DNA from: a virus
IMG/VR virus record: IMGVR_UViG_3300046787_000604
Location: 1 to 64,000 of that record
DNA: 64,000 nucleotides
Reading direction: 5' to 3' (one strand)
The notes beneath the pieces were generated by a model. That model was not told where the DNA came from and did no database searches. It was given only the letters and a program-made list of their open reading frames with translations. Below, piece by piece: positions 34,602-45,105 of this stretch (position 1 is its first letter; every line of letters starts with the position of its first letter). The position numbers and the translations under genes were made by a program.

Positions 34602-37600
34602 TTAGATATTTTCAAACGAAGCTCCTGTTGGAGTAATGAAGAATTCAATATCAATGAACTCTAACGCTTTCGTTGGTTTTAAGTAGATTTTACCTACTAA
34701 TCTATTAGCATCTAAATCTTCAGGTGTAGAAGAAACTGTTACACGGAAATCGTATAAACCTCTATCTCTTCTAATTGAGTCTAAGATTGGGTTAACACTG
34801 TCTAAGAATTGTTGTCTAACGATTTGGTCGTTTTGTTCGAACAATAATCTTACCGCCACCGCTGAAATCAACTTACGAGCTTGAAGTAATAATCTTCTTA
34901 CGTTCAATCTGTTAAGAGCTGTGTCTGCAACTTGTAACGTTTTGTTACCCCAAATTACAGTTCCCACATCTGAGAAAGTTGCGATAGGGTTAATTCTACC
35001 TTGGTAAAGTGTATCTCTATCTTCTTGAGTCAACTTACGTCTCGCTTTGATTGAGTTAACAAGACCTCTTGTGTAACCCGCTGACGCGAACCATGGGAAT
35101 GCAATGTTATCTGTCAATGCTAAGTTTCTACAAACCTCACCTGTTGGTGGTAAGTAAATTTGAGTATTGTTTACAGTATCTCTTGTCAAAATCCAAGGGT
35201 AGTAAGTTGCTGTATAGTTAGAGTCAATTCCTGTGTTATCCAAGTTGTCAACAGCCTCTTGTGCGTAAATCACATCTAATTGGTTTGTTGAATCCGGAGT
35301 ATACATTCTATAATCAGGAGTTGTTGTAATATATACTGAGTCAGCTCTTTGATATTGAACCATGTCAATCGCGCCTTCAACTAAGTTAGAGTTGTTAACA
35401 TAATCAATACTTGCAGTTGCAAATACGTTAATGTTAGTTGCCTCAGGGTTAGAGAATGATAAAATTCCAAGTAAGTAAGCGTAATAGTCAGTGTTAGCAA
35501 AATCTTGAGTATTGTTTTGAACAACAATTCTTTTGAATAAACCTTCACCTGTCGCATTAGGGTATCTTGTTGATGGAGAAGTTCCCGCTAAGAAACCTGA
35601 TGCTCCTAATTGGAATCTATCCTCATTTGTACGATACTCTCTGTAGATATCCCAACCGTCAAATCCACCTGCAAAACATACAGTATATTTTCTTGAGTAG
35701 ATGAAGTAGTATGGGTTCTCTTGAGTTTCAGGGTCTGTTCTAAATTCTGCAGAACCACATTCAAATGCCGTTTGTCCACTTGTTAATGAAGTGTTCGCAA
35801 TACTAACAACTGTTGCACCTGAGTCCATGTGGAAACCTTTACTTACATAATTCCAAGCCGCTCCCTCAATAGGTGCCGCTGAATTAACCCAATTTACAGG
35901 GTTTTGTTTACCTTTATAACTTAAGAATGACTCATCAATTCCAAATTGAGTTGAGAAACCTAAGTAACTTCTTCTAACAACATCTCCCGGAGATTCTACT
36001 AAATTGTTACCACCTGTTGACGCCCCAAACGGAGGGTTAGCAATTGTTTCACCAGGATAGTAATATTTTGTTTTGAATTGTGGTACCGGTGATGGGTTAT
36101 CAGTGTTTGCGTATTCTCTTTGAGTGTATCCGTAGAATCCACAAGGAATTGCATCAAACGGAGCCTCATCCGCTAACTCAATCATAATATATTTTGAAAG
36201 TAATGCGTATTCACCGTTTGCGGTACCGATTTTCTTAGCAACGAAGTTGTTAGATGCAGGGTCCATAGTACAGTTAGTGAATTTTTCAATAACAACAGGA
36301 TTTGCATCCGTATCAAAGAAATTTCTTACCAACACATCAAAAGTCATATTATTGAATGATAAATTCGCAATTGACACTTTAACCTCAACATTCGCAGCAT
36401 CCCCATCAGAGATTGAAACGAATTTGAATAATTTATAAACTTGATTACCTCTAAGTTCAGACACTAAAAATGGTGTACTTGGAGATTGATATTGTTCAAG
36501 GTTGTAAGCAATAGATGAAGGGTCTTGAGTTCTCGCCTCAGGTAATGCCACCAATTCAGGGTTAAGACCTTTAATATAACCTTGGTTATATGCGTAAGCC
36601 AATGAACTTGGGTAAATTTCTTCTACAAACAAAGGAACTTCGAATCTTGATTTTCCAAAGTTATCAATACCTAAAACTTTAGTAATATATTTAGATGATG
36701 TTGCAGAAAGATTAGCCTCAAATGAAAAATTATTACCATCTTTAGTTACACCTGACAATGAGAATGTCTCAAATGGTGATTTAGATGTAGTAGTATCATG
36801 GTCAGTAGTTTCAATGATTACGTTATCTAAGTCATTTACTTCATAAGTTTGTCCGTGTTCATCACTAGATGAACTATTAACATATAATGAGATACCTCTT
36901 GAACGAAGTGTTGCAACTACCATGTTATTGTATTCTGTATAAGCAGTACCAATAAATGAATAGTAATTACCTGTTACTTCTCCTGAGAAACTATCACCTG
37001 TTACCTCTAATTCAGAAACAACATAATAGAATGAATATCCTGAGTAAGCGTTACCTGTATAGTTGTTAAAGTTAGCGTAGTACCAAGAATCATTATCACC
37101 CGCAGATAAATCATTATCCGCTAAGTCATTAGTTTGAACACCATAAACGTTCTGTGGGTCAGTGTAAGTACCAACTAAAGACCAATAATCCCCTTCAGGA
37201 ATTGCCCCGTAGATTTCAGCAGTTGTTGCAGATAATGTTGTATCACCAACAAAACTTAAAATTGTTGACGTGAAATCATCATTTAATGTTGATACACTAC
37301 CATCAGATAATCGGTATTGAGAATAGAAGTTCTCAACCACCGCGTCCGGTAACTCTCCACCAATAAAGTTAACAGTACCCGCACTTGTTGAACCTGTAAA
37401 GGTTGCTGAGAACGAAGTTGAACCTGTCGGACTTTGGATTATAGTAGTAGGGTCTACGTTAGCCGTAACTCTAATACTCCAAGATGGACCTGCGTCATAT
37501 CCTGATAAACCTAAGATTCTTGTAACAAACAATTGATTTGATTGTTGCAAGTAAGATTTAGCGATGTAAGCCGCTTCATATTTAGGGATTTGTGTGTTAA

Positions 37601-37811
37601 CAAATTTGGTTGGTTCTGTTCCTCCGAAAAAGGCTTGGAATTCGTCGTAGTTTGTTATGAATACCGGTTCAAAAGCAGGACCTTTAATTGTCTCACCTAC
37701 TAAACCTAGGGTAGTAACACCCACACTTTGTGCTACGAATGATAAGTCAGTTTCAGAAGTGTATACACCCGGTGAAACGAAAACTTTTTGATTTGCTTGT
37801 GCTGTTGCCAT
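34602..37811 (-). CDS. gp18: Tail sheath protein (T4 gp18-like), enlarged
   Basis: 1069 residues; T4 gp18 has 659. The N-terminus KVFVSPGVYTSETDLSFVAQ, VGVTTLGLVGETIKGPAF and ITNYDEFQAFFGGTEPTKF is the conserved sheath start. The C-terminal domain holds TVIWGNKTLQ, LNRLNVRRLLLQARKLISAV and a final FIDIEFFITP. The region from about residue 120 to 560 is a large Thr/Ser/Gly-rich insertion that probably makes surface-exposed domains. Sheath contraction drives the tube through the host envelope. The unit has a TATTTATC box upstream and the UUCG terminator downstream. The start ATG follows AGATA and has no Shine-Dalgarno. Confidence 0.92.
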   Translation of the reverse strand: MATAQANQKVFVSPGVYTSETDLSFVAQSVGVTTLGLVGETIKGPAFEPVFITNYDEFQAFFGGTEPTKFVNTQIPKYEAAYIAKSYLQQSNQLFVTRILGLSGYDAGPSWSIRVTANVDPTTIIQSPTGSTSFSATFTGSTSAGTVNFIGGELPDAVVENFYSQYRLSDGSVSTLNDDFTSTILSFVGDTTLSATTAEIYGAIPEGDYWSLVGTYTDPQNVYGVQTNDLADNDLSAGDNDSWYYANFNNYTGNAYSGYSFYYVVSELEVTGDSFSGEVTGNYYSFIGTAYTEYNNMVVATLRSRGISLYVNSSSSDEHGQTYEVNDLDNVIIETTDHDTTTSKSPFETFSLSGVTKDGNNFSFEANLSATSSKYITKVLGIDNFGKSRFEVPLFVEEIYPSSLAYAYNQGYIKGLNPELVALPEARTQDPSSIAYNLEQYQSPSTPFLVSELRGNQVYKLFKFVSISDGDAANVEVKVSIANLSFNNMTFDVLVRNFFDTDANPVVIEKFTNCTMDPASNNFVAKKIGTANGEYALLSKYIMIELADEAPFDAIPCGFYGYTQREYANTDNPSPVPQFKTKYYYPGETIANPPFGASTGGNNLVESPGDVVRRSYLGFSTQFGIDESFLSYKGKQNPVNWVNSAAPIEGAAWNYVSKGFHMDSGATVVSIANTSLTSGQTAFECGSAEFRTDPETQENPYYFIYSRKYTVCFAGGFDGWDIYREYRTNEDRFQLGASGFLAGTSPSTRYPNATGEGLFKRIVVQNNTQDFANTDYYAYLLGILSFSNPEATNINVFATASIDYVNNSNLVEGAIDMVQYQRADSVYITTTPDYRMYTPDSTNQLDVIYAQEAVDNLDNTGIDSNYTATYYPWILTRDTVNNTQIYLPPTGEVCRNLALTDNIAFPWFASAGYTRGLVNSIKARRKLTQEDRDTLYQGRINPIATFSDVGTVIWGNKTLQVADTALNRLNVRRLLLQARKLISAVAVRLLFEQNDQIVRQQFLDSVNPILDSIRRDRGLYDFRVTVSSTPEDLDANRLVGKIYLKPTKALEFIDIEFFITPTGASFENI

Positions 37812-39131: not shown

Positions 39132-39668
39132 TTATTTCTTAACTACAAATAATTTATTTTGTGAATTTATCATATCAACTTCAGTTGCGTGATAAACCGG
39201 TTCACCTGTTGATTTATAAACAAACGAATCGTACTTGTATGGGTTGTAAGTAACAACCATATCTGACGGTGGATTTGGAATATTATCACATGGATATTCA
39301 CAAAAATCCATTAAATCACCAATAACAAATGCGTGAACATTTTTTGATTTTTCCGTTCTAACACGGTCTTTACCACCTTTTCTAACTCTAAATTCAACAT
39401 CACCTAATTTAACATAATCAGCGTGCATAATGACTTTAGATTTATATGTAACAGAAAATGTGTGTTTGTGAAGGTTATAGTACACCATAACTCTTTTCCC
39501 GATATGATTTTCTCCGGAATTGTCATGACCACATTTATGACAGATGTAAGGGTCGTCACCACCATCAGTCAAATCCCATGACCAACCACACTTGTCACAA
39601 ATTACTTCTTTATTTGTGACAATTTCTAATATTCTTTTTAATTGAGATTCTGTTACTAAAACTTTCAT
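39132..39668 (-). CDS. Zinc-ribbon protein with N-terminal ES-x-L motif
   Basis: 178 residues. Begins MKVLVTESQLKRILEIVTNK. A zinc ribbon is clear at about 24-48: CDKCGWSW, then YICHKCGHD, giving CxxC-x17-CxxC plus a terminal His. The second half (GKRVMVYYNLHKHTFSVTYK then KVIMHADYVKLGDVEFRVRK) is a small beta domain that I cannot name. It sits between the gp15-like and gp14-like genes but is not a usual neck component. The N-terminal helix shares its motif with the next gene and the SOD fusion, and could be a capsid- or virion-targeting signal. Confidence 0.75.
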   Translation of the reverse strand: MKVLVTESQLKRILEIVTNKEVICDKCGWSWDLTDGGDDPYICHKCGHDNSGENHIGKRVMVYYNLHKHTFSVTYKSKVIMHADYVKLGDVEFRVRKGGKDRVRTEKSKNVHAFVIGDLMDFCEYPCDNIPNPPSDMVVTYNPYKYDSFVYKSTGEPVYHATEVDMINSQNKLFVVKK

Positions 39669-39670
39669 TG

Positions 39671-40063
39671 TTAATAATGTACTGATAGGGTGTTAACCGG
39701 TAAGTTTATATTATCTTGGAACCATTTTTCCATTGATTCTTGCCAATGTACTCCAAACATATTATCTAAATGTTCCGCGTATCCACCCATAACCTCTAAA
39801 ATTGGTGCGTTATTTTTGAAAGATTTTGAACTCGCCTCGTCTCCATAATATTCTTTTGTGAAATAATTAAAAACAATATCGGAATCATCTTCCCCATCCC
39901 AATCTCCTTTATAAAAAATTATAAAGTTTTCATCTTCTTCATATTCACCATTTTCATCAAAATCCATTCCGTGAGTCCAATTAAGTTCATTTGGTTTCAA
40001 ATATTCATCAAGATACTGATAAATGGCGTTATTTAATTTACTTTCTGTTATTACGTATTTCAT
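39671..40063 (-). CDS. Acidic hypothetical protein with N-terminal ES-x-L motif
   Basis: 130 residues, not recognised. It starts MKYVITESKLNNAIYQYLDE, sharing the TES-x-L-x-x-x-(I/L) motif with the zinc-ribbon protein next to it. The remainder is acidic and aromatic (NWTHGMDFDENGEYEEDENF, IIFYKGDWDGEDDSDIVFNY, VHWQESMEKWFQDN). It has no Cys and no membrane segment. Its start overlaps the gp14-like stop, so it is co-translated with neck genes and probably expressed late. Confidence 0.72.
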   Translation of the reverse strand: MKYVITESKLNNAIYQYLDEYLKPNELNWTHGMDFDENGEYEEDENFIIFYKGDWDGEDDSDIVFNYFTKEYYGDEASSKSFKNNAPILEVMGGYAEHLDNMFGVHWQESMEKWFQDNINLPVNTLSVHY

Positions 40064-40630: not shown

Positions 40631-42382
40631 ATGGATGTAAGTCTCGAGTCAAAAGCATTGTCCCTATTGGAAACCTATGAAGGTGGTAATAATTACCTGA
40701 TTGAACTGAAACGAAAGTCTCAATTAAATAGAAAGTTTTATCCAACAAGGAGTCAATCAGAATACATTATTAACAATCACGATAAACAACCCAAAGTCGC
40801 TAAGAAATGGGTAATTCTTGATGCCTACTTCGCACAGAAACTTGCGGATGATAAACTATACACCGAAATTCCTCAAAAAGTTTGGGTTGAAAAACTATTG
40901 TCCGATAAGGAAAAAGCATTCCATATTTGGGGTAGAGTGTTTGAGACTGAGGAACTACATCACTTTTGGTTACCTAAAGCTGCAATCATCAAAGACAACA
41001 CAGTTAAAGATGTTGTGATTGATTACACCAAATATTCCAACCGACCACCACTTGACCATCAAAAAGAAGCAATCCAAAAATTAGTTGAGAATAAAAAGTT
41101 TATCCTTGCCGATGATATGGGTCTTGGTAAAACAACATCAACTATTATTGCAGCGTTAGAGACCGGTGCTAAAAAGATTTTAATTATTTGCCCGGCAACC
41201 TTAAAAATTAACTGGAAAAGAGAGATTGAAAACTATTCCGACCGACCAATTTTTATCTCAGAAGGAAAACAATTTAGTACGGAACATGATTTTGTTATTG
41301 TAAATTACGATATCATGAAGAATTTTCACGACCCAAAAAAGAAAGACGAATCATTAATATTAATGTCAAAATTTGATTTGGTTATTATTGATGAAGCTCA
41401 TTATATTAAGAATGCCCAAGCACAACGAACAAAACTCATCAACGATATTACAAAGAGTGTTGATAGATTATGGTTGTTAACCGGTACACCGATGACATCC
41501 CGTCCAATAGATTATTTTAACTTACTTAGTTTGATTGATTCACCTGTTGCCAAGAATTGGATGGCTTATGTTATTCGTTATTGTGCCGGTTTTCAATTCA
41601 AAGTCGGACCAAGAAAAATTTGGAATGTTCAAGGTGCGTCAAACCTTGAAGAATTACGAGATAGAACTGCTGGTCTTACTTTGAGGAGATTGAAAGAAAA
41701 TGTTTTAGATTTGCCGGACAAAATTATCACACCTGTTTATTTGAGATTAAAATCAAAAGTGTATGAAGAGGTGATGGGAGACTACTACAATTGGTATGAA
41801 AAAAATCCTGAGGAATCAAAATCACTTACGGTTCAGTTCACCAAGTTAACCAAAGTTCGTCAAATTATTGCTGATGAGAAAATATCACAGACTATTGAGA
41901 TTGCAGAAAATATTATTGAACAGGATAAAAAAGTAATCATCTTTTGTAATTTTACCGATTCGTTAAATAAAATTACGGAACACTTCGGAAAATCGGCGGT
42001 TAAGCTTGATGGGTCTATGTCAAAACATGAGAGACAATTTAGTGTTGACCAATTCCAAGAGAATGATAAAATAAAAGTGTTTGTCGGTAATATTAAAGCT
42101 GCCGGTGTCGGAATTACATTAACCTCTGCGGAGGCGGTAATCTTCAACGACTTATCATTTTTACCGTCTGACCACGCACAAGCTGAAGACCGAGCATACC
42201 GATACGGTCAAAAAAATAATGTATTAGTTTATTACCCAATTTTTGAGAACACTATTGAAGGAATTATTTACGACATACTTCACAATAAGAAACAAGTTAT
42301 TGCAACTGTTATGGGTGATAATCAAAATACTGCCGATGCTGCGGAAGAAATTCTAAAGAGAATTAATGAAATGCGTCGTTAA
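40631..42382 (+). CDS. SNF2-family DNA helicase/translocase
   Basis: 583 residues. Superfamily 2, SNF2 (SMARCAL1-like) motor. Motif I DDMGLGKTTSTIIAA is at about residue 160, motif II DLVIIDEAHYIKN at about 250 and motif III LLTGTPMTSRP at about 283. The C-terminal lobe has KVIIFCNFTDSLNKI and motif VI AQAEDRAYRYGQKNNV at about 510. The N-terminal 140 residues include a small HARP-like or beta region (FYPTRSQSEYIINNH). In T4-like phages UvsW and related helicases remodel forks and recombination intermediates, and this protein could replace UvsW. The start region has neither a TATTTAT box in sense nor a clear host promoter. Confidence 0.9.
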   Translation: MDVSLESKALSLLETYEGGNNYLIELKRKSQLNRKFYPTRSQSEYIINNHDKQPKVAKKWVILDAYFAQKLADDKLYTEIPQKVWVEKLLSDKEKAFHIWGRVFETEELHHFWLPKAAIIKDNTVKDVVIDYTKYSNRPPLDHQKEAIQKLVENKKFILADDMGLGKTTSTIIAALETGAKKILIICPATLKINWKREIENYSDRPIFISEGKQFSTEHDFVIVNYDIMKNFHDPKKKDESLILMSKFDLVIIDEAHYIKNAQAQRTKLINDITKSVDRLWLLTGTPMTSRPIDYFNLLSLIDSPVAKNWMAYVIRYCAGFQFKVGPRKIWNVQGASNLEELRDRTAGLTLRRLKENVLDLPDKIITPVYLRLKSKVYEEVMGDYYNWYEKNPEESKSLTVQFTKLTKVRQIIADEKISQTIEIAENIIEQDKKVIIFCNFTDSLNKITEHFGKSAVKLDGSMSKHERQFSVDQFQENDKIKVFVGNIKAAGVGITLTSAEAVIFNDLSFLPSDHAQAEDRAYRYGQKNNVLVYYPIFENTIEGIIYDILHNKKQVIATVMGDNQNTADAAEEILKRINEMRR

Positions 42383-42395
42383 ACCAATTTTTGAT

Positions 42396-42402
42396 TATTT
42401 AT
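42396..42402 (+). promoter_or_regulatory. Late-promoter-like TATTTAT box before the SOD fusion
   Basis: The plus strand reads GATTATTTATATGTAATG, 22 bases before the ATG at 42425. It shows that the box keeps the sense orientation on the plus strand too. Confidence 0.5.
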
Positions 42403-42424: not shown

Positions 42425-43957
42425 ATGAAAAAAATAGAAACTAAAATTCAACAGATTGAAACAAAAATCCTTGAAAACAAAATCACAAAGGAAAAAAATC
42501 TGTTAATTACCGAAATGAAGAAAATTGGGATTGAGAAACTTCCATATTCTTACACAGCCTTGAAACAATTCATTGACCCTGAGACAATGGAATTTCACTA
42601 CAACAAACACTATAAGGGTTATGTTGATAAATTGAATGACGCACTCTCAAAGAAAAAGTACGGGGATTTAGAATTAGAACAAATCATCAAAACAATCAGC
42701 CGATTCGATAAAACAATCCGAAATAATGCCGGTGGTGCTTTTAACCACGCATTGTTTTGGAATATGTTATCACCAAAAACAACAAAACTTAAAGGGGAAT
42801 TATTAAAGAAAATTACCAAACAATATGGTAGTTTCCCAACGTTCAAAAAAGAATTTGAGAAAATTGCAAAAGAACGTTTTGGGTCCGGATGGGTATGGTT
42901 AGTCCTAACTTCAAGAAATACCTTGAAAATTATGTCCACACCAAATCAAGACAATCCTTTAATGAATGTAATTGAAGGTGGTGGATTCCCACTATTAGGT
43001 TTAGATTTATGGGAACACGCTTATTATCTTAAGTATAGAAACAAAAGAGACGAATACATCACCAACTTTTGGAAAGTAGTGAATTGGGATTTTGTTTCCA
43101 AATTATATGAAATGAAGACTGAGACAAAACTTCTTGAGTCTACTAAATTAAGAGAAATATTGAGTGAGGGAAAATCGGAAATGTGCTCATCATCCGAAAA
43201 CGAATTTTACAGAACATTATTTAACACCAACCAAGATGTTAAATGGATTTACATGAACGGAATTAATAAAATAATGAGAGAAGTATTCTCCGAGAATTTT
43301 ATTGAAAAACCGGGTAATAACCAAATGTCCGGTGTTTATGACTTAGAAGGCCCGGGTAGGTCAGTGATTAATAAATTGAATACGAACTACACATCATTCT
43401 GTATTTTACTTAACGATTTGAATAAAGTCATTAAAAAATTAACAAAGAGACAACCTATTAACTTTAGAGATAAGAATACGGAAGAACAAAAGAAAGAAGC
43501 GTCAAGATTTATATCGGCAATTGAGTATTATAAATTCCAAATCTTCAATAAAGAGAGTGCAACATTCCAAAACTTATTGAGAGTTTTAATTGAAAAGAAT
43601 GCCGCAGGTTCAAAACGAGAAGAAATCACGGCAGCAATATTAAGAAGATATCTTGGTAGAGATTATAAAGTTGATATTGTTGGAGAACTCGGGAGTAAGA
43701 AAGATGCAATCAGTGGTGTTGATTTAGAAATAACTAAAGATGGGATTACAAAAACTGCACAGGTTAAACCTTTCAGAAATAAAGTAATCACCGATGATGG
43801 GATATTACTTGAAGGTACTGCTAGCGTAAAAATTTATAAAACAGACTTGATGGTTTTCCAAAAAGGTAAAAATGTTTTAGTTTTTGATAAAAAACCGATA
43901 ATAGTTAATGGTAATTTTCTTTTCCCATTAGACTCATTATTATATGATATACAATAA
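42425..43957 (+). CDS. Mn/Fe superoxide dismutase fused to a PD-(D/E)XK-like nuclease domain
   Basis: 510 residues. Residues about 36-230 are a complete Mn/Fe SOD: metal ligands His58 (MEFHYNKHYKGYV), His108 (AFNHALFW), Asp194 and His198 (GLDLWEHAYY), with Gln175 in STPNQDNPL typical of Mn enzymes. Residues 235-250 (KLLESTKLREILSEGKSE) form a linker with the ES-x-L motif of neighbouring genes. Residues 380-470 look like a PD-(D/E)XK nuclease fold: GSKREEITAAILRRYL, KKDAISGVDLEI, then TAQVKPF (Asp and Gln-x-Lys). It would convert superoxide to peroxide and oxygen; the nuclease role is inferred. It lies between a helicase and a neck gene and has a late-type box. An SOD fused this way is unusual in a phage. 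Confidence 0.88.
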   Translation: MKKIETKIQQIETKILENKITKEKNLLITEMKKIGIEKLPYSYTALKQFIDPETMEFHYNKHYKGYVDKLNDALSKKKYGDLELEQIIKTISRFDKTIRNNAGGAFNHALFWNMLSPKTTKLKGELLKKITKQYGSFPTFKKEFEKIAKERFGSGWVWLVLTSRNTLKIMSTPNQDNPLMNVIEGGGFPLLGLDLWEHAYYLKYRNKRDEYITNFWKVVNWDFVSKLYEMKTETKLLESTKLREILSEGKSEMCSSSENEFYRTLFNTNQDVKWIYMNGINKIMREVFSENFIEKPGNNQMSGVYDLEGPGRSVINKLNTNYTSFCILLNDLNKVIKKLTKRQPINFRDKNTEEQKKEASRFISAIEYYKFQIFNKESATFQNLLRVLIEKNAAGSKREEITAAILRRYLGRDYKVDIVGELGSKKDAISGVDLEITKDGITKTAQVKPFRNKVITDDGILLEGTASVKIYKTDLMVFQKGKNVLVFDKKPIIVNGNFLFPLDSLLYDIQ

Positions 43958-43980: not shown

Positions 43981-45105
43981 ATGGCAGTTATACCGGAACC
44001 AGAAAGAAGTAAAATATATACGAGAGTCAAACATCAATTAGGAGCACCACTTAGAAGTGTTGAACTTGAAGATGAAATGATGGACTCGTTAATGGAATTA
44101 TCTATTGGAGATTACGAAGAATACATTCTTCAGTGGTTAATAGATAGTCAATGGGTTAATTTAGTTAACCTAAACATGAATGAAAAATCTGTGGCCAAAG
44201 CGTTGGTTACTAGAACGATGGACTTTGAACAACAATTTAGTTATTCATATTCAAAAATTGTTGGTTTACAAACCGAAGGTCCTTGGGTGTTGAAGAAAGA
44301 TTATTTTGTTTTAAGTGCTAACACTCAAACTTACGAAATCCCTGCAGGTCGTGAGGTTAATGAACTATTATGGTTTAGTGACCAAGCGTGGTCAGCATTT
44401 GGATTAGGTGGTATGGCCGGAGGATTCGGTGGTGTTGGATTAGGTGCTAATGAGGCGGGATTTGCACAAATGGGTTATCAAGGTTCATACTTCATGATGT
44501 CAGGTTTTGATTACTTGATTAGAATGCAAGAGGCCAATATTCTTAACAGAATTTTAGGTGGTTCATTAACTTATAGAATTACCGGTTTACCTGATGGTAA
44601 GAAAAACATTCACTTATACAACACACCGGGTGGTAAATTCAACTGGTCTAATTATAATGCTTATGTTGGTAAAGCGGTGTGGTATTGGTATTATGATGTG
44701 ACACCTGATAATAGAGCGGATTGTTTGAAAAATAACCCGGATATTATCAAATTACCAACAGATGTACCATTGGAAGAATTGACTTGGGAAGAATTAAATG
44801 TACCGGGACAACAATGGGTTAGAAGATGGTTTACAGCGTATTGTAAAGAAACTTTAGCGAGAGTTAGAGGAAAATATAGTGGTAACCTTAAAACACCTGA
44901 CAGTGAATTAACCATGGACTATCAATCTTTGGCAACTGAAGCAAAAGATGAAAAATCAAAATTAATTGAAGAATTGACAGGGGCTGAAGGATGGTTAACA
45001 AGAATGAGACCCGAGAAAGTAATGGAACGTGAAGCATTAATTGCGGAAAACTTAAACAAACAAATGAAATTTAGAGCAATGCCTCGTCAAATTTACGTAA
45101 TATAA
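43981..45105 (+). CDS. Neck protein, T4 gp13-like
   Basis: 374 residues (T4 gp13 has 309). The start VKHQLGAPLRSVELEDEMMD followed by a helix is the gp13-type N-terminus (xLGxPxxxxELxDxxxxxxI). The C-terminal QQWVRRWFTAYCKETLARVR, GKYSGNLKTPDSELTMDYQS and KDEKSKLIEELTGA match the helical C-terminal region of gp13. The middle has a Gly-rich insertion (GLGGMAGGFGGVGLGANEAG). gp13 with gp14 completes the head after packaging. The gene is plus strand, unlike the other neck genes here, with its own TATTTAT box, and is followed 4 bases later by a small beta-rich gene. Confidence 0.75.
   Translation: MAVIPEPERSKIYTRVKHQLGAPLRSVELEDEMMDSLMELSIGDYEEYILQWLIDSQWVNLVNLNMNEKSVAKALVTRTMDFEQQFSYSYSKIVGLQTEGPWVLKKDYFVLSANTQTYEIPAGREVNELLWFSDQAWSAFGLGGMAGGFGGVGLGANEAGFAQMGYQGSYFMMSGFDYLIRMQEANILNRILGGSLTYRITGLPDGKKNIHLYNTPGGKFNWSNYNAYVGKAVWYWYYDVTPDNRADCLKNNPDIIKLPTDVPLEELTWEELNVPGQQWVRRWFTAYCKETLARVRGKYSGNLKTPDSELTMDYQSLATEAKDEKSKLIEELTGAEGWLTRMRPEKVMEREALIAENLNKQMKFRAMPRQIYVI

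Follow-up and report, generated by a model that had tools for sequence, protein, structure and literature searches.

The open reading frame at 42,425–43,957 on the plus strand of the window, that is, the whole 64,000-nucleotide stretch of DNA analysed, starts with ATG and encodes a protein of 510 residues. Its parts and flanking genes are listed in Table 1. As the original prediction had it, the frame lies between a helicase gene (phrog_62, upstream) and a neck gene (phrog_211, downstream), and the same two neighbours also flank several relatives of other architectures.

Table 1. Features of the locus in window coordinates; a slash follows the motif glutamate
Feature	Coordinates	Strand	Basis or remark
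UvsW-like SNF2 helicase, upstream neighbour	40631..42382	+	phrog_62, E 4e-114
TATTTAT element, TATTTATA-type candidate late promoter	42396..42402	+	29 bp before start codon
N-terminal extension, residues 1–30, ending ...LLITE30/M	42425..42514	+	Candidate capsid-targeting propeptide
Mn-type superoxide dismutase (predicted)	42515..43108	+	Pfam matches at residues 37–226; ligands invariant
Linker, residues 229–252, with KLLE238/S and ILSE248/G	43109..43180	+	Conserved motif positions
Helical subdomain, residues 253–390, GRSxxNxLNTNYxxFC motif	43181..43594	+	Model pLDDT ~92
PD-(D/E)XK-like nuclease core, residues 391–510 (predicted)	43595..43954	+	Foldseek, VIA, invariant catalytic set
E399 codon, long helix ahead of sheet	43619..43621	+	Invariant, including stand-alone homologues
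D433 codon (GVD)	43721..43723	+	Invariant
Q446-V-K448 codons (QxK)	43760..43768	+	Q and K invariant
Neck/head-tail adaptor (gp13-like), downstream neighbour	43981..45105	+	phrog_211, E 6e-10

The TATTTATA element ahead of the gene is read as a candidate T4-type late promoter. In the window and two relatives, TATTTAT shows 13- to 21-fold enrichment ahead of genes. It precedes genes for sheath, tube, baseplate wedge, fibre-like, portal, protease and scaffold proteins, and is not found before those for ribonucleotide reductase, replicative helicase, UvsX-like recombinase, ssDNA-binding protein, DNA polymerase or UvsW-like helicase. It is kept before 120/122 genes for superoxide dismutase (SOD)–nuclease proteins and 28/29 genes for sibling proteins with a zincin-like domain (zincin-SOD). 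The sharing of this element between SOD-nuclease and virion genes is consistent with the late expression that had been proposed for the locus.

An inverted repeat, GGATTAT...ATAATCC, flanks the TATTTATA element upstream of the SOD gene in many relatives (e.g. L029, L156) and could be an operator or a hairpin. Ribosome-binding sites are few, preceding 2/41 window genes, which we take as a hint of a Bacteroidota-like host. The tail sheath protein of the window (34,602–37,811, minus strand) has 1069 aa, presumably long for its family.

The reading frame and its dismutase part

Both the reading frame and the joining of SOD to its C-terminal half are real. The same fusion recurs in 120 distinct full-length proteins of 508–517 aa, the window's own included, on independent contigs from many samples; all records are metagenomic, and the proteins form a large family in uncultured T4-like phages. 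So many independent fusions of near-equal length indicate that the joined frame reflects neither chance nor the assembly error raised in the original prediction as a possible source of two merged genes. SOD and nuclease do occur as separate, overlapping genes in some relatives, as an artefactual join would allow, but with 120 full-length fusions in hand that explanation is already refuted and its probability negligible. More than 600 viral contigs match the window SOD, and the best 80 of these matches are all SOD-nuclease fusions or their fragments. The view that phage SODs are uncommon is accordingly not supported: beyond these contigs, SODs of freshwater phages have been published and were read as lowering oxidative stress in the infected cell (PMC6802176). 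Bacterial genomes scanned with the SOD half yielded bacterial SODs at 37–44% identity.

The SOD part matches Pfam Sod_Fe_N (E 7.7e-23; 81.2 bits, cut-off 27) and Sod_Fe_C (E 2.8e-40; 136.9 bits, cut-off 20.9), and the NCBIfam Mn-SOD model with E 1.2e-60, yet below that model's cut-off. Across 52 representatives at <90% identity, the metal ligands His58, His108, Asp194 and His198 are invariant, which bears out the claim that all four are intact; the second sphere (His62, Tyr66, Gln175, Glu197 and Tyr201) is equally fixed. The part also contains NNAGG and NQD, which we take to be marks of the Mn type, and it is assigned to that type on this assumption. From its sequence, the window SOD is thus predicted to be an intact Mn-type enzyme.

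With a mean column entropy of 0.34 versus 1.4 in the C-terminal half, SOD is the slowest-evolving part of the protein. This constraint, together with the published reading of freshwater phage SODs, would suit an ordinary auxiliary metabolic gene, in which SOD eases oxidative stress and the C-terminal half serves as an accessory DNA-binding or regulatory part. Such a role sits poorly with the invariant catalytic set of the nuclease, the late-type element before the gene and the occurrence of the nuclease on its own, and we regard it as quite improbable.

The C-terminal half (~260 aa) is indeed also found without SOD, as a stand-alone protein, with homologues in phages of 635 and 735 kb. IMG/VR scans with these two megaphage homologues returned no relatives, and no match was found in plasmids. 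In addition, a 501-aa UniProt entry named superoxide dismutase (A0A6J5L953, BFVD) matches the window C-terminal half with a TM of 0.91; because of this structural match and the SOD name, it is very probably the same fusion. It is recorded only as SOD, and no mention of its nuclease half was found in open-licence papers.

Predicted fold of the C-terminal half

The nuclease family named here is absent from Pfam, PHROGs and NCBIfam, none of whose models names the C-terminal half, and searches of these collections, PADLOC and the PDB gave only weak or sub-threshold sequence matches. Among these, DUF6602 (E 0.005), PADLOC PD_DExK (E 0.0045) and ShosA (E 0.004) were left unused for their weakness. 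By phmmer and profile search of the PDB, no sequence relation to I-Ssp6803I, Hjc or DREN emerged.

The structural comparison recommended in the original prediction was carried out. An AlphaFold2 model of the C-terminal half, built from 56 homologues, reached a pLDDT of 93.3 and a pTM of 0.85. Foldseek placed I-Ssp6803I first among PDB structures (2ost, prob 1.0, E 2.4e-3), with Hjc among the best, and VIA gave matches of moderate Z to Hjc (Z 8.1), SPARDA DREN (Z 7.0), I-Ssp6803I (Z 6.9) and NhoI (Z 6.8). PD-(D/E)XK enzymes account for the top seven Foldseek rows and the vast majority of the leading VIA rows, with matches that span model residues ~142–261, corresponding to protein residues ~391–510. 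The preceding helical subdomain is conserved in two alignments (A1, A4).

In an alignment that includes the stand-alone homologues of the 635 and 735 kb phages, E399, D427, G431, D433, T444, Q446 and K448 are invariant. GVDLEI and TAQVK, earlier proposed as the acid and QxK of a nuclease, are both present, with D433, Q446 and K448 among these fixed positions. Residues 391–510 are therefore predicted to adopt a PD-(D/E)XK fold with an intact E...D...QxK site. Because the leading rows come almost entirely from one superfamily and the catalytic residues fit, the C-terminal half is likely a nuclease, and fold matches and catalytic set agree with the proposed fusion of SOD to a PD-(D/E)XK-like domain.

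I-Ssp6803I and Hjc share the PD-(D/E)XK fold with the window nuclease, and the former presumably also has QxK. SPARDA DREN resembles it in both fold and D...QxK set, its catalytic residues being D41, Q60 and K62 (PMC12205087). Unlike all three, the window nuclease carries an extra helical N-terminal subdomain and lacks a clear second core helix; DSSP of the model assigns strands and a loop, without that helix, after the QxK strand (model residues 192–231).

That the nearest Foldseek structure is a homing endonuclease, I-Ssp6803I, raises the question of whether this half arose when a homing-type or otherwise selfish nuclease inserted beside SOD. We consider this highly improbable, since the domain is present as a single copy in 11 large records and is in frame, conserved across the family and located at the same helicase-neck place in the loci inspected.

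Junction motifs and sibling architectures

The N-terminal extension forms a helix at residues 2–32 in the model and contains two conserved [IL]-x-E motifs, ending at E17 and E30, with the middle residue free. At I28-T-E30, both the glutamate and an I or L at position 28 are kept in 52/52 representatives. Two further motifs lie in the linker: L236 and E238 are invariant around a free position 237 (L/T/A/M/S/N), and E248 is near-invariant with I or L at 246. SOD-nuclease thus has five conserved [IL]-x-E motifs, the fifth (E197) being inside the SOD metal motif, and the four at the junctions tolerate different middle residues. Shuffling of columns within the N-terminal extension and linker gave p = 0.014 for four conserved motifs, which is suggestive and not strong alone. 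More broadly, the residue before SOD (P1) is E in 188/189 sequences, with P3 nearly always I or L and P2 free; in zincin-SOD proteins P1 is E in 28/28, and P2 takes seven residues.

The [IL]-x-E motif is short and common, and the capsid protein has seven such conserved motifs. In the major capsid protein of these phages, [YF]LINE/A occurs near residue 60, which we take to be about where T4 gp23 is cut. A prohead protease of the S77/gp21 type is encoded in 9/11 larger relatives; the window's own record, a 65.8 kb fragment, shows neither protease nor terminase. T4 gp21 cleaves after L/I-x-E and removes N-terminal targeting propeptides of 10–19 residues from the internal proteins (PMC9026906), compared with 30 residues for the extension of SOD-nuclease.

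Possible leaders occur elsewhere as well. The stand-alone nuclease of the 635 kb phage begins with MKKFTEYIKE/S, resembling a T4-type leader. General enrichment of N-terminal [IL]-x-E[SAG] is weak (49 vs 28 expected), and that of [ILV]TE..[LIF]..[ILV] is stronger (10 vs ~0.6 expected). At 39,132–40,063 on the minus strand of the window, two adjoining genes begin with MKVLVTESQLKRIL and MKYVITESKLNN, and relatives show similar leaders (MKTLKLTESDLNRIVKKVLLEQ and others), in which [ILV]TE is followed by an amphipathic stretch. These leaders have the appearance of a capsid-targeting signal used by this phage group.

Siblings of the window protein, found by scanning IMG/VR for the SOD motif and sharing 66–80% SOD identity, fall into several architectures. 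One type has a ~150-aa N-terminal domain with HEWVH followed by SOD (360–367 aa); another adds a further C-terminal module (466–736 aa), and five proteins of this type share a cluster with the large SOD-nuclease group. A third consists of SOD alone, with a leader. The HExxH domain is recognised by its motif only, without a Pfam match. The same SOD is also fused to other C-terminal domains in relatives, and eight loci encode SOD and nuclease as two neighbouring genes, at the same position ahead of the neck gene. An [IL]-x-E-type motif lies at nearly every domain junction of these siblings. In one relative (L412), the C-terminal module fused after SOD is also present as neighbouring free genes; the leader of the free form ends in LIKE/N, and the fused form has LNE/S at the same alignment position. 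Together, siblings and motifs fit protease-punctuated modules better than a single fused enzyme.

Other combinations were noted among relatives. Zincin-SOD proteins of L344, L442, L338 and L391 carry two further C-terminal families, with motifs SFFEVKK and ISCKIIRN and each possibly another PD-(D/E)XK-like domain, and ~710-aa proteins of L345, L353, L337 and L365 seemingly combine an HExxH domain, SOD and a D...QxK nuclease. Tandem copies of small genes with TATTTATA elements stand beside the SOD gene in two relatives (L412:10639-12049 and L456:2278-3269); they have leaders MKIIISESQYKLIKE or MKVKVTEEKLYPVFKKFME and form a variable cassette in the helicase-to-neck interval.

The chief rival reading takes the protein for a late, unpackaged, cytoplasmic Hjc-like resolvase. 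Like T4 gp49, it would trim branches from phage DNA ahead of packaging, and the tethered SOD would shield DNA or nuclease from superoxide late in infection. Archaeal Hjc as the best VIA match and the late-type promoter element both accord with this, as does the finding that none of nine related records has RuvC, RusA or endonuclease VII above the Pfam cut-off. However, one relative encodes an HNH protein matching the PHROG endonuclease VII (E 2.8e-14), Foldseek ranks I-Ssp6803I first, and a resolvase would leave the junction [IL]-x-E sites and the swapping of zincin and other modules unexplained. We consider a resolvase unlikely.

A putative head-cargo precursor

We instead judge it somewhat probable, from these sequence patterns, that SOD-nuclease is expressed late as a modular head-cargo precursor and processed by the prohead protease. 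In a precursor made late in infection, the N-terminal helix would serve as a capsid-targeting propeptide that draws the protein into the prohead. Cleavage by a gp21-type prohead protease on the C-terminal side of E30 (and E17) and of E238 and/or E248 would then yield a free SOD (~31–238) and a free nuclease (~249–510) within the head. SOD could protect the packaged DNA, or the cell just infected, from superoxide, and the nuclease could attack host or rival DNA following injection. Packaging, which the original prediction had raised, gains indirect support from the [IL]-x-E sites, the gp21-type protease and the sibling architectures. The fuller claim, that the particle carries both SOD and nuclease from one precursor cut by the prohead protease and that these proteins form a new modular cargo class with the zincin-SODs, is held more tentatively, as quite possible.

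Two points bear on how such cargo would work. Delivery into the cell is doubtful because a folded SOD dimer may not pass the tail tube; with a dimer of this size, a role within the particle is plausible. A nuclease enclosed with its own genome requires a safeguard, and none was found. A lasting physical link between oxidative defence and DNA cleavage, as the original prediction had suggested, appears doubtful, because the linker has conserved putative cut sites and some relatives encode the two parts as separate genes.

The protein shares with the T4 internal head proteins (IPI–III, Alt) a late-type element, a helical N-terminal extension ending in [IL]-x-E, a gp21-type protease (encoded in relatives) and variable cargo. 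It differs in that its putative cargo would comprise SOD and nuclease, separated by a second candidate cleavage site. SOD as head cargo was not found in open-licence papers. Polyvalent proteins (Iyer et al. 2017, PMC5512222) likewise combine unrelated enzyme domains in one chain and shuffle modules, and their zincin-like HExxH domain occurs in sibling architectures, though not in the window protein; unlike in polyvalent proteins, the cutting enzyme would be the prohead protease. SOD is absent from the domains listed in that paper, where the word superoxide does not occur. SOD-nuclease resembles both groups and is at most a candidate member of either.

Three things appear to be new: the nuclease family, the conservation of the SOD-nuclease fusion, and the use of SOD as a module in protease-punctuated late proteins. 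If the head-cargo reading is true, antioxidant phage genes, long read as host help, would here be parts of the virus particle, and junction [IL]-x-E motifs combined with the TATTTATA element would provide a predictive rule for head-carried proteins, applicable to T4-like phages of uncultured aquatic bacteria.

Separately, a 1113-aa protein of an uncultured marine phage (BFVD A0A8D9CCA0) contains the C-terminal domain with a TM of 0.87 and is perhaps another multi-domain cargo protein.
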